From: Motilimonas sp. E26
GTDB lineage: Bacteria; Pseudomonadota; Gammaproteobacteria; Enterobacterales; CBDFNC01
Reading direction: 5' to 3'
DNA: 42,815 bases
NCBI RefSeq assembly: GCF_021278025.1
Contig: NZ_JAIBHJ010000031.1
Location: 1-42,815, forward strand
In this document: one piece after another, positions 7,660 to 27,348 of the stretch
How positions within the stretch are numbered: position 1 is the first letter of the stretch
How the letters are laid out: every line of letters starts with the position of its first letter
Translations under genes and position numbers: made by a program
Notes under the pieces: model-generated
The model's input: only the letters and a program-made list of their open reading frames with translations
Database searches by the model: none
What the model was told of the DNA's origin: nothing

Positions 7660-7929
7660 TTAAACCACGGCTAATTTTGGCTCCACCGCCCGTTCACTAA
7701 CCGCGACTGAAGTCACGCCAATCAATTTGCTCAGTTGCGCGGTCAGCAAGGCAATGGCACGTTCACTCTCTAGTGCAACCTGAAGTTCAACTTGTTGTAA
7801 TTCGCTGTCTAAATTCATTTGCATGGTTTGCACGCTAAAACCGCGGTGGCGCATCACGCGTAATACACGCTCTAATAATTCAGGGCTATGCTGAGCCGTA
7901 ACCGTTAGGTGATGTAACATAATTAGCAT
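7660..7929 (-). CDS. ilvM: Acetolactate synthase II small (regulatory) subunit
   Basis: An 89-residue ACT-domain protein ([21 protein letters not shown], then [13 protein letters not shown]) of the IlvM type, the small partner that activates and stabilises the IlvG catalytic subunit of acetohydroxyacid synthase II. Its start overlaps the ilvG stop by seven bases, which implies translational coupling and equal production. The ATG at 7926, one codon inside the longest frame (start 7929), may be the real start; the frame reads [10 protein letters not shown] and the ATG next to LHHL gives the family's usual N-terminus. Confidence 0.93.
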
Positions 7930-9566
7930 TCCTCCATCATTTTATCGTTGGCTGCACCCGGTGGCACTAATGGCCAAACGTTCTCTTCTTCACTGATGGC
8001 GACATGTAAGATGTACGCCCCTTTACTGTTTAGCATGCGCTCAAGTGCTGGCTGCACTTGCTCTTTAACGACGATAGTTTCACCCGGAATATCAAACGCG
8101 GCCGCTAAAGCAACAAAATCTGGGTTATCGGTCAAAATAGTTTCGCTGTAGCGACCTTCAAAGAACAACTGCTGCCATTGGCGTACCATGCCTAAACGCT
8201 GGTTATCTATCAGTAGAATTTTCACTGGCAGTTTGCGGCGCTTGATGGTGCCAAGCTCTTGTACATTCATCATAAATGAGCCATCACCCGACACTGCAAT
8301 AACGGTATCGTGTGGACGTGCTACTTGCGCGCCAACGGCGGCTGGCACACCAAAGCCCATAGTGCCTAACCCTGAGCTTGAAAGGTGATCTCGCGGACTA
8401 TCAAATTCGATGTGCTGCGCCACCCACATTTGATGTTGGCCCACATCACAAGCGACTACGGTATTTTTTGGCGCCATATCTGACAGCTGTTTTAATAGCA
8501 GCGGTGCATAAATAGCTTCACCGGGATGATCGTAACGCCAGTGATATTCTTGCCTCATGGCAATAGTGTGTTGTTGCCAGTCGTCAATATCCAACGGCAT
8601 CGCTAGCTGCGGTAATACTTGTTTTAAATCTGCTGCAATTGCAACGTCAGCTTTGCGCAATTTACCCAGTTCAGCAGCATCAATATCAAGGTGAATAACT
8701 TTGGCATTCACCGCAAACTCATCCAGTTTACCTGTCACGCGGTCATCAAAGCGCGCGCCTGCCACCACTAATAAGTCTGCTTCTTGTACCGCAAAGTTAG
8801 CAGCTTTAGTGCCATGCATCCCCACCATGCCTAAGAAAGCGTACTGATCGGGTGCGATGGTGCCAATGCCTTTTAACGTGGTCATACTCGGCATTTTGGT
8901 TTTCGCTAAAAAGTCGCGCAGTTCGGCTTCGGCGTGAGCTAATGTGACGCCACCACCTACATATAACAGCGGTTTTTTTGCTTGACTAAGCAATTCACGC
9001 GCAGCGGTAATATCTGTTAGTTCAGGTGAATTTGGCTCAGACACTTCGTGAGTAATACAGGCATGCTCAATGGCGGCTAATTGAATATCTTTAGGAATAT
9101 CGACCAACACCGGACCGGGACGACCAGAGCGTGCCACTTCAAACGCTTGCGCTATCACTGAACCTAAATCTTCCGCGCGCTGCACCATAAAGCTGTGTTT
9201 AGTACAAGAAAGGGACATGCCTAACACATCAACTTCTTGGAACGCATCGGTGCCAATTAATGGTGAGGCCACCTGACCGGTAATCGCCACAATAGGCACT
9301 GAATCTAACAACGCATCAGCAAGACCGGTGATCAAGTTAGTGGCACCAGGGCCAGAAGTAGCAATGCAGACCCCCACGCCACCCGTTGAGCGTGCATAAC
9401 CAATCGCAGCCATTGCCGCACCTTGCTCATGGCGACATAACAAGTGGTCTACACCACAATCATACAATGCATCATACACCGGCATGATGGCCCCGCCAGG
9501 GTAACCAAACACTTGCTTCACGCCTTGCTGTTGTAATGCCTTAACCACAAAATGGGCACCGTTCAT
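7923..9566 (-). CDS. ilvG: Acetolactate synthase II large (catalytic) subunit
   Basis: Condenses pyruvate with a second pyruvate or with 2-oxobutanoate, the first shared step to valine, leucine and isoleucine, using thiamine diphosphate, FAD and magnesium. The protein is complete. The catalytic Glu is in [13 protein letters not shown] to [11 protein letters not shown], and the ThDP-binding [12 protein letters not shown] leads to the conserved NQRLGMV. I place the start at ATG 9566 (MNGAHFVV), as in E. coli MNGAQWVV; a GTG two codons earlier is possible, and TAGGAT upstream could serve either. The gene is first in the operon behind the ilvL leader and attenuator. In E. coli K-12 ilvG is broken; here it is intact. 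Confidence 0.97.
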
Positions 9567-9584
9567 AACCACACATCCTAAGTC

Positions 9585-9622
9585 AAAAAAAAACCCCCGA
9601 ACCAGTTAAGGTGCGGGGGTTT
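9585..9622 (-). terminator. Attenuator terminator of the ilv operon
   Basis: On the minus strand AAACCCCCGCACC, a six-base loop and GGTTCGGGGGTTT form a strong GC-rich hairpin followed by an unbroken run of nine T. It lies between the Ile/Leu/Val-rich leader peptide and ilvG, exactly where a transcription attenuator belongs. When charged branched-chain tRNAs are scarce, ribosome stalling in the leader should prevent this hairpin from forming. Confidence 0.9.
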
Positions 9623-9638
9623 AAAATGTTTGTCTGAG

Positions 9639-9725
9639 TTATTTTATCTTAGCCAACATTCCCCCGAGCGATGGTTGAATGACCACCACTAGGACCAGAA
9701 TAATCAGGCTAACTATTTTAAACAT
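9639..9725 (-). CDS. ilvL: ilv operon leader peptide
   Basis: A 28-residue ORF starting MFKIVSLIILVLVVVIQPS and ending GGMLAKIK. Residues 4-16 are almost all Ile, Leu or Val (I4, V5, L7, I8, I9, L10, V11, L12, V13, V14, V15, I16), which is the signature of an attenuation leader sensing all three branched-chain amino acids. It ends 17 bases before the attenuator hairpin and lies 73 bases upstream of ilvG. The sequence differs from the enteric IlvL but has the same plan. It is too short to be picked up by ordinary gene finders. Confidence 0.9.
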   Translation of the reverse strand: MFKIVSLIILVLVVVIQPSLGGMLAKIK

Positions 9726-10012
9726 TGAGCACTCAGTCACGAATTAATACAAAAACTGCCTACATAACTACCATAAATGCCCTAGAGCATCAACACAGTA
9801 CAAAGGTGGTTTTTACCTGTAAATTGTTTTTTTGGTTCAGCAAACCTATACAAGATCCAGACATAATTAAAATACACAGAACAATAGACCAGTATTGATT
9901 AAATATGCAATATATAGACAAGGCAAATTTCCAATCTACCCGATCTGACTCAAAGCTAAAATAACTAAAAAAATTTCCATTAATTTTGCGATGCCAGATA
10001 TCTGGCTAATAC

Positions 10013-10217
10013 TTATACCCAGTCAACGAGGAACAGCTTTATTTCAACAAGAGTTTACATGCGTTTAGGCAAGGCATTGATTGCAGCTAATGACCTTCCC
10101 TTATTCAAAGTCAATCACACAGCATAAATGCCAGTAAAGCTTGCCCTTTGCCAGCGCACCAACTATTGAAAACACGGTGGCGCTCTGAAACATGTACCTT
10201 CTAGTTGATTGGGTATC
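10013..10217. repeat. MITE-like terminally inverted repeat, copy 1
   Basis: This 205-base element starts TTATACCCAGTCAAC and ends GTTGATTGGGTAT, so its ends are imperfect inverted repeats. Its middle closely matches copy 2 at 12807-12989: both share AGGCATTGATTGCA, CAGCATAAA, GGCGCTCTGAAACATG and a run resembling GTAAARCTTGCCCTTTG. It encodes no protein. The right end lies about 20 bases before the comM start codon, so it forms the immediate upstream region of comM. It resembles the small mobile or folded repeats common in marine gammaproteobacteria. Confidence 0.75.
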
Positions 10218-10237
10218 GCACTGAACAAGGAGCCGTC

Positions 10238-11746
10238 ATGTCACTTGCTATTGTATATTGTCGCAGCTTACTCGGGATTGATGCGCCAGAAGTGATGGTA
10301 GAAGTGCATTTAGGCCGAGGTTTACCCGCCTTTAATTTGGTCGGCCTGCCCGAAGCCAGCGTTAAAGAAGCCAAGGAGCGGGTTCGAAGCGCCATTCAGA
10401 ATTCACAATTTGAATTTCCCAGTTCGCGATTAACGGTAAACCTTGCACCCGCTGACTTACCCAAAAATGGCGGTCAATTTGATTTGGCGATTGCATTAGG
10501 CATTTTAGCAGCTTCAGGGCAGATCCCTGCGCAGCAGCTAAGCAAGTATGAGTTTTTTGGCGAATTGGCATTATCAGGCGAGCTTCGCTCTTGCCGAGGT
10601 ATGATCCCCGTGGCCATGGCGGCGCGGGACGCGAAACGAACCTTAGTGTTACCAACAGCCAATGCGCCCCAAGTCAGTTGTGTCAGTGGCGAACATAAAA
10701 TTGCTAATAATTTATTACAAGTGTGCCGCTTTCTCGCGGGACAAGAGCAACTCGACCATGCGCCACCACATCAACCATCACAAGAGAGCACCAAGTGTGC
10801 CGATTTGATTGATATTATTGGGCAATATCAAGGCAAGCGCGCCCTTGAAATTGCTGCGAGTGCGGGTCATCACCTGCTTTTGATCGGTCCACCAGGCACG
10901 GGGAAAACCATGCTAGCCAGTCGTATTCTAGGCATCATGCCAACACTAAGCGAAGCTGAGGCCCTTGAAACAGCAGCGATTTATTCAATTAGTGATTTAC
11001 CTGATTTGCCTTGGCAAACTCGGCCTTTTCGCCAGCCTCATCACAGTGCGTCAGCGGCGGCTTTAGTTGGCGGCGGCGGTAAGCCAAAACCGGGCGAGAT
11101 AAGCTTAAGTCATAATGGGGTACTTTTTTTAGACGAGCTGCCAGAATTTTCCCGTGTTATTTTAGACAATTTGCGCGAACCGATGGAAAGTCAGCAAATC
11201 ACTATTTCACGCGCCACCGCTAGGTTAAATTTTCCAGCTAAATTCCAACTTATTGCAGCGATGAACCCGAGTCCATGTGGCTTTCATCAAGGTGAGCTGA
11301 GTCGAAGCACTCCCGATCAAGTTCAGCGATATTTACAACGCTTATCAGGCCCTTTTCTCGACCGCTTCGATATTTCGGTGATGATCCCTGCTTTACCTAA
11401 AGGGAGTTTAAGTAAGCCAAGCCAAGAAGGAGAAAACAGTGCCGTCATTAAAGCACGGGTGATAGCCAGTCGCGATAGACAACTCGCTCGACAAGATAAG
11501 CTTAATGCGCATTTAACCGCGGCCGAAATCAAACAGTTTTGTCCGTTAACTGCTGGTGACAGTGAGTTTTTAGAAAATGCCATCGAAAGGCTTGGCCTGT
11601 CGGTTCGTGCTTGGCACAGTATTATCAAGGTTGCACGTAGTATTGCGGATTTGGCAGATGATCCGAAGATTAGCCGATCTCATCTCACTGAAGCATTAAA
11701 TTATCGTGCGATGGAACGCCTATTAGCCAGCTTAGGTAAAATGTGA
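10238..11746 (+). CDS. comM: ComM/YifB AAA+ ATPase (Mg-chelatase-like helicase for DNA uptake)
   Basis: A 502-residue protein of the YifB/ComM family. ComM is a hexameric AAA+ helicase that promotes branch migration during natural transformation. An N-terminal region with ribosomal S5-like fold (LAIVYCRSLLGIDAPEV, NLAPADLPKNGGQFDLAIA) precedes the AAA+ module with Walker A GPPGTGKT and Walker B VLFLDELPEF. The Mg-chelatase insert has QPHHSASAAALVGGGGKPKPG, and a C-terminal lid follows. I start it at ATG 10238 with AAGGAG at 10227-10232; the longer TTG frame at 10205 begins inside the inverted repeat. It lies divergently from ilvLGMDA, as yifB does in E. coli, and its last 15 bases overlap the convergent ChbG-like gene. 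Confidence 0.96.
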   Translation: MSLAIVYCRSLLGIDAPEVMVEVHLGRGLPAFNLVGLPEASVKEAKERVRSAIQNSQFEFPSSRLTVNLAPADLPKNGGQFDLAIALGILAASGQIPAQQLSKYEFFGELALSGELRSCRGMIPVAMAARDAKRTLVLPTANAPQVSCVSGEHKIANNLLQVCRFLAGQEQLDHAPPHQPSQESTKCADLIDIIGQYQGKRALEIAASAGHHLLLIGPPGTGKTMLASRILGIMPTLSEAEALETAAIYSISDLPDLPWQTRPFRQPHHSASAAALVGGGGKPKPGEISLSHNGVLFLDELPEFSRVILDNLREPMESQQITISRATARLNFPAKFQLIAAMNPSPCGFHQGELSRSTPDQVQRYLQRLSGPFLDRFDISVMIPALPKGSLSKPSQEGENSAVIKARVIASRDRQLARQDKLNAHLTAAEIKQFCPLTAGDSEFLENAIERLGLSVRAWHSIIKVARSIADLADDPKISRSHLTEALNYRAMERLLASLGKM

Positions 11747-20492: not shown

Positions 20493-20843
20493 AACTAAAC
20501 CCTAAGATAGTAATTAATACCCATTTTAGGTGAACAAGCGACTAAATAACATAAACCAATACTTTCAACTCGCAATAATAGTTGATGTGTAAATGCCATA
20601 AGTGCTACCTAACAGCGACTATAAATACTAGGGACGCTTGAGCTTAGGTAATAATAGGGATAGCATCGCCACCAACTTTCATACTCCTGCCAGAAATGCC
20701 CACAATCCACTTACTTTTCGATATGAAGATCACAGCAGACTGAATAGGTAATTGCTTATGACTGACTGCTAGTCTTTAATGCGCATATAAAAATAAAAAC
20801 GGTTACTCTACAAGCTATTAATTTAAGGAAGCAGCAAGTCATC
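20493..20843. other. Divergent intergenic region upstream of the chitin sensor gene
   Basis: This 351-base AT-rich gap separates the acyl-CoA synthetase and the GH18-LytTR gene and should contain both promoters. An AAGGAAGC ribosome site lies at 20826-20833. I searched for paired LytTR-type boxes and found no convincing pair at the usual spacing. No RNA gene or repeat is evident. Confidence 0.4.
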
Positions 20844-23612
20844 ATGCGTTCTTTGTGGGTCATGTTCATTGTTCTTGGCAATTTGTTGTTCAGCTGTGTT
20901 CAAGCAGCTGAACCTAAAGCGATTATTGCTTATTACAAGCAGTGGGGGATCTATAGCCCTAATTATCACATCAAGGATGTTCCAGTAGGCCAAGTTACGC
21001 ACTTGGTTTACCAAAGTGCAAAATTTGATTCCGAAGGAACTGTAGAAGTTGGTGATGAATATGCAGATTTAAATTTACAATATCCTGACGCTGACGAAAG
21101 CATACCTTTTAGTGGCAACTTTGGTCAGATGGTGAGCCTTAAAAAGCGTCATCCCCATATTAAGACCATTATCTCTATTGGTGGCTGGGGCCGATCTGAA
21201 CATTATTCAAACATAGCAGCAGACCCTGAATTACGACATGACTTTGCTAAGTCAGCAACCGAGTTTATGAAACGCTATCAATTTGATGGCATTGAAATTG
21301 ATTGGAACTTTCCAGTTAAGACCCAACGCGCTAAACAGCACGGTTTAGCGGCAGATAAGAAAAATTTTACTCTCTTACTTGAGGAGCTAGACGAACAGCT
21401 TTACTTAGAAGGTCAGAAAGATCGTCGAAAATACTTATTAATTAGCACTATCTCAGCTGCAATTGGTTACGAACAGAACTGGGAGGTAAAGGAAGCCAGT
21501 CGCTACTTAGATTTAATCAGTTTATCAACTGCTTACATGCATGGTTACTGGGAAGAGGCGAAGATAGCCAACCACATCACCCCACTCTATTTATCTGAAA
21601 GTACTCAGCAGAGACTTACTTCGCTTAAAACAGAAGCCAATTCAGTTAACTTAGCGGTGCGCGCTATTTTAAATGAGGGCGCACCAGCGGAAAAAGTAGT
21701 CGTGAATATCGCCAGTTTTGCCACTGCGTGGGACCAAGTGCCAAGTGACGACAAAGGGCTTTATACCCATGCTGGAGAAATAAGTTGGGGAAGTTGGGAT
21801 ACCACCAGCTCAGGTCGTACAGGTTTATACAATCGCGGCCACTTGATTGGCTTTCTTGATAATCCTCAGTATCAAAAAGGTTGGGATAACAGCGCTAAAT
21901 CGGCTTGGATTTACAACCCAGAAAAAAATGGAGGTCACTTTGTTAGCTATGAAAGTCAAGACTCCCTTGCTGAAAAAGTTACTTACATAGAGCAACTTAA
22001 CTTAGCTGGTATCGCCATTAGGCAAATTCACAATGATCTTAAAGGCAAAGATTCTTTAATTAGACAAACTTACGCAGCTTTCTACCCTTGGCAAGCCATT
22101 TTATTTCAAGCCAAGCTATTCTATGCCAATTATAAAAATCGGATTTTATTGACCACAGGCTTCTCATTACTAATGATCTTATTGCTCATTAGAATCAAGT
22201 ATAGACATTACAAAGAGGAAGAAGCAGACGTAAAAGATCGTGAACAATACCTGCAGTTAAAATCACAGCTACAACAACTTAATACCCCTCTTCAAGGCAT
22301 TGCGGCATTATCGCAACGCATTAAACAACACCAAGGGTTACTCGCAGATGAGAGTCAGGCTAAGTTACAACAAATTGGCCAAACAGGACTTGAGATAAAC
22401 CATTTAATCCACAGCTTATTACATGACACCACATTGTCTCACAACCCCCGAACCGCTGAGTTAGAGCCAGTAAGTTTTAGGGAGATATTAAATGTTAGCC
22501 TTAATATATTAACGCCCTATATTAAGAATAAAGATGTTTCAGTGACAGCCAAAGCAATCACAGATGACCTTACTGTGATTGCGGATCCTGTATATCTACA
22601 AAAATTACTTATTACCTTAGTATCTTGGGCTGTTGATAACTGTGACAAAGGTAAATCTGTCATATTTGATGCCAAAGCCAGCCAAGGCTACTACCAGATC
22701 AGTATGTTGACAGAAGGCCGACCACCTCTAGTTAGCCCTGCACAAATACCAAACATATCTCTAATTAAACAATGTGTAAGTGCGATTTGTGCCGAGATTA
22801 CTTTCGACGCTAGCGCCACACAACACAGTTGCTACTTATCATTACAAAGTGCCAACACACCTCCGATAGAGTCGCTACCGAAAGTAAAAATATTGCCTGC
22901 GGATCCTCATCAACCAGAAGTTCAGAAAAGAACTCAACTGGAAGCAGCGAATGAACGATTACAAACCTTACAGGCTTTTTCTTCTCAGGCTTGTAAGTTA
23001 AGGGACATTAATGAGCTCATCAAAGAAGCATTTGAGGTGTTCATTCATGATCCGAAGCAACCTATCGTTAAAGTGTATCAAGGCGATAGCGTGATACACA
23101 GTAACGAGGGTCAAGAAACAGAGCAACAAGATAGCGTGACTATCGCTCATCCCGATTTAGGCGAGTTTTGTTTCGAGCTATACAGCAAGGAACCACTAAC
23201 AGAGGAAGATGTTTACTACTTCCATAGTTTGGTCACGCAGATCCAAATGGTTCGACGCCAGCTACACGAAATAACCAAAGAGCCACAACTGCTGTCAGAG
23301 CTGTATGAGATAGCTTCTCGTAAAGATAAAATCCTTTATATTAAAGCGGAGAAAGGCTACAGCGGTATTTACTTACCCAACACAAAAGACGCGATCTACC
23401 TGACTTTACGCTTGAAAACCATCAAGTTATATTTTGACGATGATGTGTTACTGCAAATCCATCGGTCTTGGCTAATCAATCCGAAAAAGGTCACTAAGGT
23501 GCATCAGTTAACTAAACTGAAGTACGAAGTTGAAATTGAGGGCCAGAGGCTGCCTATCGCACGCCCATATATTCCTGTGCTGAAACTACATTTTCCACAT
23601 TGGTTTATTTAA
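20844..23612 (+). CDS. Membrane-bound chitin sensor: inactive GH18 + pseudo-kinase + LytTR DNA-binding domain
   Basis: A 922-residue fusion. Residues 1-21 are a signal peptide. Residues 24 to about 405 are a GH18 chitinase fold with its ISIGGWG strand kept, but the catalytic motif is DGIEIDWNFP (148-157), with Asn 155 in place of the acid Glu. The MxYD motif is also lost (Ala 230, Tyr 231), and the usual C-terminal Trp region reads AIRQIHND. A membrane segment covers about 434-452. Residues about 460-690 resemble a sensor kinase, but the H-box reads LQQLNTPLQGI with Gln 477 where His belongs, and the N-box has Trp in VSWAVDN. A GAF-like or coiled linker leads to a LytTR domain (about 828-922, with LQIHRSWLINPKKV). 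I infer binding of chitin fragments outside and DNA inside. Two intact chitinase genes follow. Confidence 0.85.
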   Translation: MRSLWVMFIVLGNLLFSCVQAAEPKAIIAYYKQWGIYSPNYHIKDVPVGQVTHLVYQSAKFDSEGTVEVGDEYADLNLQYPDADESIPFSGNFGQMVSLKKRHPHIKTIISIGGWGRSEHYSNIAADPELRHDFAKSATEFMKRYQFDGIEIDWNFPVKTQRAKQHGLAADKKNFTLLLEELDEQLYLEGQKDRRKYLLISTISAAIGYEQNWEVKEASRYLDLISLSTAYMHGYWEEAKIANHITPLYLSESTQQRLTSLKTEANSVNLAVRAILNEGAPAEKVVVNIASFATAWDQVPSDDKGLYTHAGEISWGSWDTTSSGRTGLYNRGHLIGFLDNPQYQKGWDNSAKSAWIYNPEKNGGHFVSYESQDSLAEKVTYIEQLNLAGIAIRQIHNDLKGKDSLIRQTYAAFYPWQAILFQAKLFYANYKNRILLTTGFSLLMILLLIRIKYRHYKEEEADVKDREQYLQLKSQLQQLNTPLQGIAALSQRIKQHQGLLADESQAKLQQIGQTGLEINHLIHSLLHDTTLSHNPRTAELEPVSFREILNVSLNILTPYIKNKDVSVTAKAITDDLTVIADPVYLQKLLITLVSWAVDNCDKGKSVIFDAKASQGYYQISMLTEGRPPLVSPAQIPNISLIKQCVSAICAEITFDASATQHSCYLSLQSANTPPIESLPKVKILPADPHQPEVQKRTQLEAANERLQTLQAFSSQACKLRDINELIKEAFEVFIHDPKQPIVKVYQGDSVIHSNEGQETEQQDSVTIAHPDLGEFCFELYSKEPLTEEDVYYFHSLVTQIQMVRRQLHEITKEPQLLSELYEIASRKDKILYIKAEKGYSGIYLPNTKDAIYLTLRLKTIKLYFDDDVLLQIHRSWLINPKKVTKVHQLTKLKYEVEIEGQRLPIARPYIPVLKLHFPHWFI

Positions 23613-23767
23613 CTTAATCGACTTAAGTAGTGAGGAGGAAAAATCCGAGCTTACGCACAAAACCACTATCGATTAAGTATCAGGTGTTCACAAATTCCAC
23701 AGTTTCTGTAATGATGGCGTTCTTGGCACGGATTGCTAAGAAACACAACATAACAAGGAACGTTATT

Positions 23768-25219
23768 ATGAAATTAAAAAAGTTAGCGCAAGCGGTCGCG
23801 TTTGCCTCTATTTTTGGCGCATCAGCACAAGTTGCAGCCAGTGCAGCAGACTTCAAAGTAGTTGGCTATTTCCCTTCTTGGCAGGGATCAACTGCGGAAG
23901 TGCAGTACGAAAAACTAACCCACATTAACTACTCATTCCTTTTACCTAATGCTGACGGCTCTTTAAAGCCAATTGATGCACCACAAACATTAATCGATTT
24001 AGTCAGTCGCGCCCACGCTGAAAATGTAAAAGTAGGCATTGCAATCGGTGGCTGGAATGGCGGTAACGACTCAGCCTTTGAAACACTCTCAGCCGATCCT
24101 ACAGCGCGTGCCAACTTTATCAGCAATGTAATGGCATTCATCAACCAATATGATTTAGACGGTGTTGATATGGACTGGGAATACCCCGATCCAGGTCAAA
24201 GTGCAAAACGCTACACGCTATTAATGGACGAGTTAAGTAAAGCCCTTAAACCACAAGGTAAATTTTTAACTGCTGCAGTCGTTGCCTATGGTAATACCGG
24301 TGCAGGCGTTGAAACAGAAGTATTTGAAGACATTGATTTTCTTAACTTAATGGCTTACGACGCAAACAATACTAACCACTCCACATACCAAGTTGCAGTC
24401 GAGTCAATCAATTACTGGGCTGGCCGTGGCTTAGCAAAAGAAAAAATAGTGCTTGGTGTACCTTTCTATGCACGCCCTACTTGGCAGAAATACCGTGATA
24501 TCGTAGCTGCCGACCCAAATGCAGCTTGCCGCGATTTATCAGGTGGTGGTCATTACAACGGCATTCCATTAATTAAAGAGAAAACGAGACTGGCCCTTGC
24601 TCAAGCAGGCGGTATTATGAACTGGGAGCTCACTCAAGATGCCCCTAACCAATACTCCCTGTTAACTGCAATGGATGAGGTTATCAATAACCTAAGTACA
24701 GGTGAGTGCGGCACAGCTGTTGAACCAACAGTTGAGCCAAGTGTTACCCCTACGGTAACTCCCACTGTTACTCCATCGGTTACACCTACAGTAACGCCAA
24801 GTGTTGAGCCCAGCGATGCGTGGAGCGCATCATCGGTTTACTTATCAGGTGATATCGTTATCCACAATGGCAATACGTATGAAGCGAAGTGGTGGAACCA
24901 AGGAGCTGAGCCTGGCTCTACTCAATGGGGCCCATGGGAATTAATTTCAGGTGTTGAACCAACAATTGCTCCTACTATAACTCCTACAGCAGAGCCAACT
25001 GTAACTCCTACAGTAGAGCCAACAATCGCTCCGACTGTTGAACCAAGTTTAGAGCCAACAGTTGAGCCAAGTCTGCCACCGCAAGATTCTTGGCTAGCTA
25101 CCCGCATTTATTTGTCTGGTGACAGAGTCAGCTATAAAGGCAACCAATATGAAGCGAAATGGTGGACCCAAGGAGAAGAACCAGGTGTCGCGCAGTGGGG
25201 ACCTTGGAAAAAGCTATAA
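23768..25219 (+). CDS. GH18 chitinase with two C-terminal CBM5/12 domains
   Basis: A 483-residue secreted enzyme cleaving beta-1,4 bonds of chitin. I use ATG 23768 (ribosome site AAGGAACG), which gives a signal peptide cut near ASA-ADF; the frame is open back to 23630 but lacks a signal there. GH18 spans about 28-310 with an intact DGVDMDWEYP motif (catalytic Glu 138) and NLMAYD. It is a compact GH18 without the large insertion domain, as in endo-acting forms. Two chitin-binding CBM5/12 modules (about 350-393 and 441-483; each with NxYEAKWW and QWGPW) are joined by Thr/Pro/Val linkers of repeated VTPT and VEPT units. It starts 155 bases after the sensor gene and ends at a good terminator. Confidence 0.95.
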   Translation: MKLKKLAQAVAFASIFGASAQVAASAADFKVVGYFPSWQGSTAEVQYEKLTHINYSFLLPNADGSLKPIDAPQTLIDLVSRAHAENVKVGIAIGGWNGGNDSAFETLSADPTARANFISNVMAFINQYDLDGVDMDWEYPDPGQSAKRYTLLMDELSKALKPQGKFLTAAVVAYGNTGAGVETEVFEDIDFLNLMAYDANNTNHSTYQVAVESINYWAGRGLAKEKIVLGVPFYARPTWQKYRDIVAADPNAACRDLSGGGHYNGIPLIKEKTRLALAQAGGIMNWELTQDAPNQYSLLTAMDEVINNLSTGECGTAVEPTVEPSVTPTVTPTVTPSVTPTVTPSVEPSDAWSASSVYLSGDIVIHNGNTYEAKWWNQGAEPGSTQWGPWELISGVEPTIAPTITPTAEPTVTPTVEPTIAPTVEPSLEPTVEPSLPPQDSWLATRIYLSGDRVSYKGNQYEAKWWTQGEEPGVAQWGPWKKL

Positions 25220-25240
25220 TTACACTGATACACAAATCAA

Positions 25241-25265
25241 ACGGAAGCATTAGCTTCCGTTTTTT
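25241..25265 (+). terminator. Rho-independent terminator after the first chitinase
   Basis: ACGGAAGC and GCTTCCGT pair perfectly around ATTA, followed by five T. It is 21 bases after the chitinase stop, so the two chitinase genes are probably separate transcription units. Confidence 0.9.
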
Positions 25266-25974
25266 ATTACTGACAATTAAATCTTAATTCCGTGTGAGCG
25301 GATAAATCACACCACCTAAAAGCTCATTAGATATATCCCCCCCAAACAACCTCGAGATGCAGGGTTTAGAGCCTTGCCAGTCAAGCAACAAACTCTCGCT
25401 GAACAAGTATCTTGAAGTTACTGGGGTATAAACCAAACCTGAACTTACCAATAATCCACCTTATAAATCACTACAGATAAATATCTACACCCTCTCCTCC
25501 TCAAATCTACCTAAGATATGAGCCTCACGAGTAAAAGCAAAAAGAGTGAGGGTCCCTCATTAAAGTTGCATATTTCAACATTGTGAAATGATCAATACAA
25601 CATTTCACCCACTCATCAATAACAGCCTAACGATCTGTTATTTAAGATAAAAACATTTCATTTCATAGATATTACAGGCTGTTTTCATGGGAAATTCCCG
25701 CCATAACAGAACCGATGAACAGTGCAATAAACGCTCAAAACAAAGATCAATTCCACGCACGAGTTGAAAGTAGTTATCGCGCTCACAAAAGCATCTGATT
25801 GGTGATCTATCGGTGAGAAACAGCTATCGACAAAACCACTGTAAGCCTATGTTTAAAAAGTAATTAAACTTCTGTTTGTGAAGTGGTTAAGGTTTGCAGC
25901 TATTATTCATCGTCGCTATCTGACAACATGGCTACATCATTATTTGGATGATGTTGATAAGGAAGGCGAAACGA
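25266..25974 (+). other. Long regulatory-looking gap before the second chitinase
   Basis: About 700 bases with no ORF worth calling. It holds the diverged third repeat copy (25332-25430) and an imperfect palindrome ATTTCAACA/TTGTGAAAT at 25572-25589, with AACATTTCAC just after. At about 25830-25842 is ACAAAACCACTGT, whose first 11 bases also occur upstream of the first chitinase at about 23657. The related AGTGGTT lies near 25881 in the opposite sense. AAGGAAGG precedes the start. A gap this long before a secreted-enzyme gene suggests complex promoter control, but no site is proven. Confidence 0.4.
25332..25430. repeat. MITE-like repeat, diverged short copy 3
   Basis: The ends TATATCCCCC and GGGGTATA are inverted, and next to the right end is CTTGAAGTTACT, like the CTTCAAGTTAAT near the right end of copy 2. 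It also has CTCGAGATGC close to the left end, like TCTGGAGATGC in copy 2. At 99 bases it lacks most of the interior, so it may be a deleted relative. Confidence 0.5.
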
Positions 25975-27348
25975 ATGAACACATTTAAACTATCGTTACT
26001 CAGCAGCTTGTTTCTAGCGGCAACCACAGCCAATGCAGCGGCTGATGCCAGTGAAAATCATCGTTATGTACAAGCACCAAAAGCCAAGCCTTACAAGGTT
26101 ATGCCAAATACCTCTGGTAAAGTTGTTGCCAGTTATTTCCCAGACTGGAAACTGCAAGGTGATATATATACCGTACGCAATATGCCAGTAAAAAACCTTA
26201 CCCATGTCATTTACGCTTTTTTATCTATGTGTGCTCCACACACTTATGTGAATGATGGCCTCAAGAAAATGATTGAAGAAAACTGTAAAGGGAAAGAACC
26301 TTTTACAGCCACTATCGTTGACAGTGAAGCCGCACTTGACGTTCGTTTTGATAAAAAACCCGAACCGCAAGAATACTATGGTCACTTTGGTGAACTTAAA
26401 AAAATCCACCAGCAAAACCCAGACCTAGTGATTCTGCCATCTTTTGGTGGTTGGACCATGTCAGAGCCATTCCGCGCTATGGCTAAGTCAGAGGAAGGTC
26501 GTAAAACCTTCGTTAAAACAGCAGTTGAGCTAATTGCTAAATATGATTTCTTTGGCGGCATTGATATCGACTGGGAATACCCTGGTGGCGAAGATAATTC
26601 ACACGTAAGCTGGCGTGGCAACTCCCTTACCGAGGAAGAAAAAGCCCATGAACGTGAAGTTTTCACCCTGTTAATGAAAGAGCTTCGTGCCGAGTTAGAT
26701 AAATTAAGCAAAAAAACCGGTCGTGAATATGAGCTGTCTGCGGCGGTAAACGGCTCGGTAAGTAAGGTGGCGGCTATCAACTTTGCTGAAGCGCAACAAT
26801 ACATGACACATGTATATGCCATGACTTACGATTTCTTTGGCGGTTGGGGCCCTCAGGTTGGCCATTTAACCAACCTACACGCGACGAAAGATACATTGTG
26901 GGGCATGGGCGTAGACAACATGCTTAAAACCCTAGAAAACGCGGGTGTCCCTAAAGAGAAGCTAGTGGTAGGCGCGGCCTTCTACGGTCGCGGCTGGGAA
27001 GGTGCAAAATGGGATAAGCCTGAACAATTCCCAGAAAGCGGAACAGAAGGCAAAGCCCATACCGATGGCTCAGGAGAGCCTGGTTACTTCTCTTATAAAG
27101 ATATTATGAAAAAGTTTGTTGACCAAAATGGTTACCAATACGGCTATGACGAAGAAGCTGAAGCTCCTTACGTTTACAACAAGAACACTGGCGCATTTAT
27201 CAGTTTTGATGACCCTCGCTCAATCGAAGCTAAAGGTAAATTCGTCCTTGACCAAGGCTACGGCGGTATCTTCTCTTGGGAAATAACCCAAGATGACGGT
27301 TCACTCCTTCGCGCCATGAACAAAGGCCTAGGTCATAAAACCAAATAG
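25975..27348 (+). CDS. GH18 chitinase, ChiA-like
   Basis: A 457-residue secreted chitinase. ATG 25975 has AAGGAAGG nine bases upstream and gives a normal signal peptide (SSLFLAATTANAAA). The catalytic motif is GGIDIDWEYP with Glu 201, followed by an intact AMTYDFFGGW and a C-terminal GGIFSWEITQDD. The segment between FYGRGWEGA and GYFSYKDI, and the YNKNTGAFISFDD stretch, correspond to the chitinase insertion domain of processive group A enzymes such as ChiA. There is no separate chitin-binding module, unlike its neighbour. The pair may act together, one on bulk chitin and one on chain ends; that is inference. A strong terminator follows. Confidence 0.95.
   Translation: MNTFKLSLLSSLFLAATTANAAADASENHRYVQAPKAKPYKVMPNTSGKVVASYFPDWKLQGDIYTVRNMPVKNLTHVIYAFLSMCAPHTYVNDGLKKMIEENCKGKEPFTATIVDSEAALDVRFDKKPEPQEYYGHFGELKKIHQQNPDLVILPSFGGWTMSEPFRAMAKSEEGRKTFVKTAVELIAKYDFFGGIDIDWEYPGGEDNSHVSWRGNSLTEEEKAHEREVFTLLMKELRAELDKLSKKTGREYELSAAVNGSVSKVAAINFAEAQQYMTHVYAMTYDFFGGWGPQVGHLTNLHATKDTLWGMGVDNMLKTLENAGVPKEKLVVGAAFYGRGWEGAKWDKPEQFPESGTEGKAHTDGSGEPGYFSYKDIMKKFVDQNGYQYGYDEEAEAPYVYNKNTGAFISFDDPRSIEAKGKFVLDQGYGGIFSWEITQDDGSLLRAMNKGLGHKTK

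Follow-up and report, generated by a model that had tools for sequence, protein, structure and literature searches.

A Motilimonas protein joining a non-catalytic GH18 chitinase fold to a LytTR DNA-binding domain: a probable one-component transmembrane regulator

What would a chitinase-like domain be doing at one end of a polypeptide that has a DNA-binding domain at the other? The question is raised by the gene at positions 20844-23612 of contig NZ_JAIBHJ010000031.1 of Motilimonas sp. E26 (RefSeq assembly GCF_021278025.1); the whole stretch analyzed, positions 1 to 42,815, is called the window below. A preliminary description of this gene had proposed a chitin sensor and transcription factor in a single chain. 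The product is quite probably a one-component transmembrane transcription regulator, in which a GH18 domain that does not cut would bind chitin fragments and a LytTR domain would act on DNA from the membrane. The domains and their order, the membrane stretch, the loss of the catalytic acid, the decay of a kinase core, purifying selection, and recurrence in chitin-degrading genera are all established here. The gene and its parts are as follows.

20844..23612, forward strand: transmembrane regulator of 922 amino acids (aa), with non-catalytic GH18, membrane, pseudokinase, GAF-like and LytTR parts (open reading frame list, Pfam, NCBIfam, AlphaFold2 model)
20844..20909, forward strand: predicted signal peptide or N-terminal hydrophobic helix, residues ~1-22 (hydropathy 1-19; model helix 2-20)
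20922..22037, forward strand: GH18 ectodomain, residues 27-398 (Pfam; best Foldseek match 1itx, 1.4e-32)
22143..22199, forward strand: membrane helix, residues 434-452 (hydropathy; within model helix 431-495)
22254..22859, forward strand: decayed DHp and ATPase-like kinase core, residues ~471-672 (NCBIfam, family profile, Foldseek)
22917..23276, forward strand: GAF/PAS-like small domain with helical flanks, residues ~692-811 (secondary structure of the model, predicted local distance difference test (pLDDT) ~51-84; alignment)
23325..23588, forward strand: LytTR DNA-binding domain, residues 828-915 (Pfam)

The frame is a single unbroken ATG-to-stop open reading frame (ORF) of 922 codons, as had been described. 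A frameshift or assembly artefact is excluded because the same fused frame is conserved in four Motilimonas species (at 91, 79, and 56% identity in the three others), and the domain order is kept in 37 ORFs. Recently joined DNA was also considered and rejected: G+C content, taken in 300-base pieces along the gene, is 37-46%, without a junction-like step. The two terminal domains proposed earlier both have Pfam matches above their curated cut-offs, GH18 at 1.4e-65 (222.5 bits, cut-off 29.6) and LytTR at 3.5e-12 (46.8 bits, cut-off 22.6). Hydropathy analysis gives two stretches, residues 1-19 and 434-452, in agreement with the predicted signal peptide and single membrane segment of the preliminary description. 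A membrane helix and a DNA-binding domain are on the same chain, as in the transmembrane transcription regulators treated in PMC10269533, which also notes LytTR proteins with membrane regions in Caulobacter (papers are cited here by PMC number).

An AlphaFold2 model built from 34 aligned members has a mean pLDDT of 83.5 and a predicted template modelling score (pTM) of 0.54, at which the placing of domains relative to each other is not reliable. It consists of a TIM barrel, matched by Foldseek to chitinase A1 (the 1itx entry above), a long helix spanning the membrane stretch, two DHp-like helices of low confidence (pLDDT 51-63), an ATPase-like domain and a small domain, both alpha/beta, and the LytTR domain. 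The small domain, at residues ~692-811, had been called a GAF or coiled linker; it is GAF-like and has no Pfam match. A separate model of residues 456-922 (mean pLDDT 71.7, pTM 0.36) served for fold comparison only.

The GH18 domain of this family is predicted to have lost cutting and retained its fold. At the acid position, the Glu of DxxDxDxE, the window protein has Asn (residue 155, DGIEIDWN). In alignment A2, which comprises the window protein and 33 named loci (handles beginning with L or G), with the own-genome paralogues and G057 outside it, the column reads R in 14 members, Q in 12, N in three, and I, P, L, H, and T in one each; Glu is found in 0 of 34. The own-genome paralogues L039 and L040 have Arg here, and L044 has Pro. 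A count over the 64 GH18 rows whose alignment spans 180 residues or more gives 38 without the Glu and 26 with it: 37 of the 38 are GH18-LytTR ORFs, the remaining one being the GH18 ORF of L064, and all 26 comparison GH18s that retain Glu are without LytTR. Rows of fewer than 180 aligned residues were removed before this count; those that cover the column have Glu, including the 23630-25219 protein of the window. Elsewhere in the domain, Asp at 153 is retained in 31 of the 34 members and the Trp of SxGGW in 33, and a hydrophobic stretch lies C-terminal of GH18 in 32.

Two members depart from this pattern in other ways. In L064 (Psychromonas sp. Urea-02u-13, 7908-10688) GH18 and LytTR are in separate ORFs with 261 bases between them, the copy being either broken or the product of a draft error. 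Decay of the GH18 sensor has gone furthest in L050:9816-12020 / L082:7989-10193, which has no SxGGW, has DGVEINWT for DxxDxDxE, and is on a very long tree branch; this protein may sense something else, or its pocket may be in the process of being lost.

Loss of the Glu in GH18 proteins has been taken as likely loss of activity, as in four of 25 secreted Andreprevotia ripae GH18s without Glu144 (PMC8802321). Structures of E-to-Q mutants of chitinases with bound chitin oligomers are available in the PDB (1ehn and 8oye, going by their titles), providing a precedent for chitin-oligomer binding without cutting and for the part that Gln or Arg might play at this position; exactly this Gln is present in 12 of the 34 members. 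An active chitinase was rejected, the catalytic Glu being absent from every aligned member. It is hardly credible for the same reason that the protein is a membrane-anchored enzyme whose GH18 cuts and whose LytTR is a passenger, despite the high GH18 score and a figure legend (Figure 1 of PMC8802321) that puts a LytTR-bearing protein among putative chitin-active enzymes: that paper itself equates Glu loss with likely inactivity, and the supposed passenger is found in every one of the 34 members and, by nonsynonymous differences (pN) in three species pairs, ranks slowest or second slowest among the segments.

Between membrane and LytTR domain, the histidine-kinase-like region of the preliminary description does have homology to a kinase core, by both profile and Foldseek comparison, but the core is a decayed one. 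The Pfam HisKA match (0.024) is under the curated cut-off, and NCBIfam kinase models matching residues 478-625 (CreC, 1.5e-7; PnpS, 3.1e-7) are far under theirs. A profile of residues 456-922 from 14 members has matches among kinase-core structures in the PDB (ZraS, 1.7e-8; 7z8n, 2e-8), the family profile of the cytoplasmic part aligns with the ZraS and GacS cores, and Foldseek matches the model of that part to kinase cores (ZraS, 7.6e-11). The H-box position, presumably the His of a working kinase, is Gln477 in the window protein, and the N-box position is Trp595, both taken from the HMMER alignment of the family profile. Across the 14 members with the clearest kinase part, Q occupies the H-box position 11 times and R, K, and H once each (His is missing in 13), while position 595 is F in six, W in four, Y in three, and L in one, with Asn in none. 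Neither a HATPase family nor a receiver domain is among the 7 families matched in these 14 members at E 0.1, or the 16 matched in the 34 members at E 0.03. HisKA is weakly matched in four of the 14, at best 0.00017. The ATPase-like part comes to no more than 39 residues, and so counts as missing, in 19 of the 34 members; in L065 it is partial.

The family's kinase core is, on this showing, a decayed one predicted to be without catalysis, and a working histidine kinase was rejected for the window protein given its H-box Gln, N-box Trp, and lack of a HATPase match. Being dispensable in some members, the core is not the output step. Since it is decayed, and 19 of 34 members do without the ATPase-like part, a one-component reading is preferable to a two-component reading, as the proposed single-chain domain order had implied. 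If the core were still phosphate-active, say by pairing with a different kinase in a mixed dimer, this could account for the retained fold, the strong selection on DHp (see below), the H-box His of L059, and the weak HisKA matches; with the H-box and N-box residues replaced as they are, no HATPase or receiver family matched, and more than half of the aligned members short of the ATPase-like part, it is very improbable.

The source of the core was likely a hybrid histidine kinase. Kinases L087-L092, from Desulfobacterium, Desulfocicer, and SAR324, share regulator residues 692-918 or the C-terminal half of these, which suggests this origin. The four that were scanned, L087, L089, L091, and L092, have complete HisKA, HATPase, and receiver domains and a terminal LytTR, but no GH18; each thus unites kinase, receiver, and DNA-binding domain in a single polypeptide.

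Both dead domains appear to be maintained. Against the M. cestriensis ortholog, ratios of nonsynonymous to synonymous substitution rates (dN/dS) come to 0.002 (DHp), 0.010 (LytTR), 0.025 (membrane linker), 0.032 (GH18), 0.038 (ATPase-like part), and 0.047 (GAF-like part), rough values since dS (0.9-2.8) is near saturation. They indicate that all six segments are under purifying selection and that none is drifting. With Glu absent throughout while selection persists, the earlier idea that a chitinase fold has become a sensor is supported.

How widespread is this arrangement? Two short peptide patterns, used to scan 84,980 species genomes, gave 51 loci (members without the patterns are missed). 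From these and other loci, 46 ORFs with GH18 and LytTR were collected, 37 after removal of duplicates, so the homologues of the same order that the preliminary description had called for do exist; both domains are matched in all 34 aligned members. Hosts include Motilimonas, Psychromonas, Thalassotalea and Colwellia (Colwelliaceae), Teredinibacter, Marinifaba, an uncultured member of the Alteromonadaceae, and Vibrio sp. Of7-15, and, in the Chitinibacteraceae, Andreprevotia, Chitinilyticum, Deefgea, Chitiniphilus, Chitinolyticbacter, and Chitinibacter. C-terminal profile A6 is matched in eight of 394 genomes of the order at 1e-15, in four of four Motilimonas genomes at 1e-10, and in one of 369 genomes of the class (the genome studied here), the sets being even samples rather than every genome. 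The distribution is patchy.

All four Motilimonas genomes encode three GH18-LytTR proteins apiece. Class A (922-935 aa) has the kinase-like core, class B (~704-742 aa) has a GAF-like part and no kinase core, and the third copy is variable, at 593-734 aa. The window's genome has five LytTR ORFs, three of them with GH18, and 12 GH18 ORFs (13 matches, one ORF being matched twice). In a quick maximum-likelihood tree, 38 sensor GH18s fall on one side of a single branch (SH-like approximate likelihood ratio test, SH-aLRT, 99). The sensor GH18s likely have a single origin, short of proof because the comparison set is small and was gathered from the fetched loci, non-randomly, with a profile built from the sensors.

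As to ligand, dimer switch, DNA site, and target genes, we infer the following. The GH18 domain would lie outside the inner membrane, and its cleft would hold either chitin oligosaccharides or the end of a chitin chain, uncut because the catalytic Glu is replaced. Binding would shift the membrane helix along with the long helix that follows, and the disabled kinase core and GAF-like domain would relay the change, probably as a change in the dimer. In the simplest working, this would place a pair of LytTR domains on membrane-adjacent DNA, as in ChiS with other parts, and alter chitin-gene expression while the protein stays membrane-held; the neighboring chitinases would be the first candidate targets. 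Alternatively, membrane proteolysis on ligand binding could release the LytTR part, as RseP releases the N-terminal part of Clostridium thermocellum RsgI (PMC12203970). This is improbable: no pointer to a protease is among the present results, and the nearest working analogue, ChiS, acts from the membrane (PMC11856585).

The surroundings of the gene bear on both ligand and targets.

20716..20736, forward strand: 21-base block 108-128 bases before the regulator start, candidate control site (19 of 21 positions unchanged in four of four Motilimonas species)
23768..25219, forward strand: GH18-CBM5/12 chitinase downstream of the regulator, keeping DGVDMDWE (Pfam, alignment)
25239..25262, forward strand: terminator-like hairpin 3' of this chitinase (hairpin scan)
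25948..27348, forward strand: second GH18 protein, keeping GGIDIDWE (Pfam, alignment)

The chitinase directly 3' of the regulator carries two carbohydrate-binding modules of type CBM5/12. Its ORF runs from a GTG at 23630, but the ATG at 23768, a signal-peptide-like start, is preferred. The hairpin that follows it, one of 14 terminator-like hairpins in the stretch (7.0 expected), suggests a regulator-chitinase unit. In four of four Motilimonas species the first and second genes after the class A gene are GH18s with Glu. Behind the own class B gene (L039), at L039:3957-6840, come a ChitinaseA_N/polysaccharide-deacetylase protein and then a periplasmic-binding-protein-like one (Peripla_BP_4), possibly a chitosan route; at the three other class B loci the neighbors are similar in length to these, length being what was compared.

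Further chitin-related neighbors were found in other genomes. Third copies L077 and L082 precede GH18-CBM5/12 proteins; Vibrio L066 faces a GH18-CBM2 protein; and ChitinaseA_N, CBM5/12-deacetylase, or GH18-CBM5/12 proteins are near L069, L071, L076, and L084 (the CBM5/12-deacetylases at L071 and L084). In the Colwelliaceae, L057 has a TonB receptor, a tryptophan-halogenase-like protein, and a GH18 downstream, the first two in a layout typical of sugar-uptake loci, and L059 and L061 have a cupin in the downstream neighborhood. Selected neighbors were scanned, hence no enrichment is claimed. Colwelliaceae loci L057, L059-L063, and L078 also share a layout in which two proteins, of 1088-1109 and 501-514 aa, come after the gene; in L057 they are the TonB receptor and the tryptophan-halogenase-like protein.

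The 21-base block occurs at one place in the genome at up to three mismatches, and as a single-copy sequence it is not a shared operator. Alignment of the three upstream stretches yielded no shared DNA site, and a promoter scan was uninformative (9 sigma-70-like sites, 16.6 expected).

Several observations weigh against a chitin-sensing regulator of this kind. LytTR sites are paired direct repeats, and no convincing repeat of this type was found in the three intergenic stretches: one has an 11-base pair at a spacing of 26, the other two have none. No chitin gene is among the scanned neighbors of G057, L040, L070, L080, L081, or L085: Psychromonas-like G057 adjoins phosphoenolpyruvate carboxylase and an efflux pump, the own third copy L040 adjoins pyruvate kinase and a major facilitator superfamily protein, and the neighbor of L085 is without a Pfam match. 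For L065 the scanned neighbors yielded just a Ricin_B-lectin-like protein. L059 (Colwellia) has an H-box His, with an N-box position that is also non-Asn, and the comparison GH18s were gathered non-randomly, as mentioned above. Finally, the cleft is partly altered. By columns assigned from the alignment, the YD motif has its Tyr in five of 34 members, and the beta-8 Trp is kept in 13 and is Arg in the window protein; these are the positions that we take to be the Tyr and Trp of the -1 subsite. Because they are changed, the ligand may differ from plain chitin.

The same one-component layout could thus serve another ligand: chitosan or partly deacetylated fragments, peptidoglycan pieces, another glycan containing N-acetylglucosamine (GlcNAc), or a periplasmic binding protein carrying its ligand, on the model of ChiS, which is activated by chitin-bound CBP (PMC11856585). 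The mostly unconserved Tyr and Trp would be explained, as would the deacetylase and Peripla_BP_4 proteins beside L039 and the CBM5/12-deacetylases near L071 and L084. That the next two genes are Glu-retaining GH18s in the window and its three Motilimonas counterparts, and that several host genera are named as chitin degraders, makes another ligand unlikely, if well worth keeping in view. Chitin fragments are the most likely ligand on account of fold, neighbors, and hosts, the changed Tyr and Trp leaving room for chitosan or another GlcNAc glycan.

A fuller history for the chitin-fragment regulator can be drawn, one that seems to us evenly balanced between acceptance and doubt. These would be receptors of single origin, in which a chitinase was turned into a sensor that reads the polysaccharide directly, as chitin ends or fragments, the dead core of a hybrid kinase became a mechanical relay, and the LytTR domain works from the membrane; the several copies, with their differing acid-site residues, would read different forms of chitin, some of them beside their own enzymes.

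ChiS of Vibrio cholerae has kinase ancestry and, to our knowledge, no GH18 domain. Like the protein proposed here, it is a membrane-held regulator of chitin genes that binds promoters directly, but it works via chitin-bound CBP (PMC11856585) and is described as having a cryptic helix-turn-helix DNA-binding domain where the Motilimonas regulator has LytTR. RsgI6 of Clostridium thermocellum likewise has an extracellular glycoside hydrolase domain of very low activity, which binds polysaccharide and is the proposed sensor (PMC4711584); it differs in being a GH10 protein of a Gram-positive with an anti-sigma-factor output, rather than GH18 and a DNA-binding domain in one chain. In LytTR regulatory systems a LytTR regulator is also governed by a membrane part, but regulator and membrane inhibitor are separate proteins (PMC6193735), whereas here there is one chain with a named sensor fold. 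The LytTR-ending hybrid kinases L087-L092 share the C-terminal part, and those with intact domains differ as detailed above.

The closest published sighting is in Andreprevotia ripae, where LytTR is listed among the domains of GH18, GH19, GH20, and lytic polysaccharide monooxygenase proteins (PMC8802321, Figure 1 legend). There the LytTR-bearing protein is grouped with putative chitin-active enzymes, and no regulatory reading was found in the available text. L080 is a GH18-LytTR protein with Gln at the acid position; its host is Andreprevotia sp. IGB-42, and this strain code is also found in the gene names of PMC8802321. In open-licence literature, preprints excluded, no description was found of GH18 as the sensor of a transcription factor or of a GH18-LytTR regulator. 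The earlier statement that no described regulator has this domain order holds for those papers, with the reservation that the GH18/LytTR pairing had already been drawn, as an enzyme. The parts and the principle have precedents; what appears new is the proposed transmembrane regulator with a dead-chitinase sensor and a dead-kinase relay.

For the annotation of chitin-degrading bacteria, the family means that genome counts of GH18 "chitinases" include regulators: in the genome studied here, three out of 12 GH18 ORFs are of this kind. A survey of Motilimonas reports 10 to 16 GH18 genes per genome, in a text without a hit for either "LytTR" or "regulat" (PMC13182010); these counts probably include GH18-LytTR regulators. 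More generally, there are few systems in which the perception of insoluble polymers like chitin by bacteria is understood in detail. Here two dead enzymes, a chitinase and a kinase, appear to be maintained under selection within one chain, and the GH18-LytTR regulator offers a clean, testable module. If the proposal is true, a receptor derived from a chitinase that binds and does not cut would allow direct sensing of the polymer, or of fragments from it, without a kinase step.

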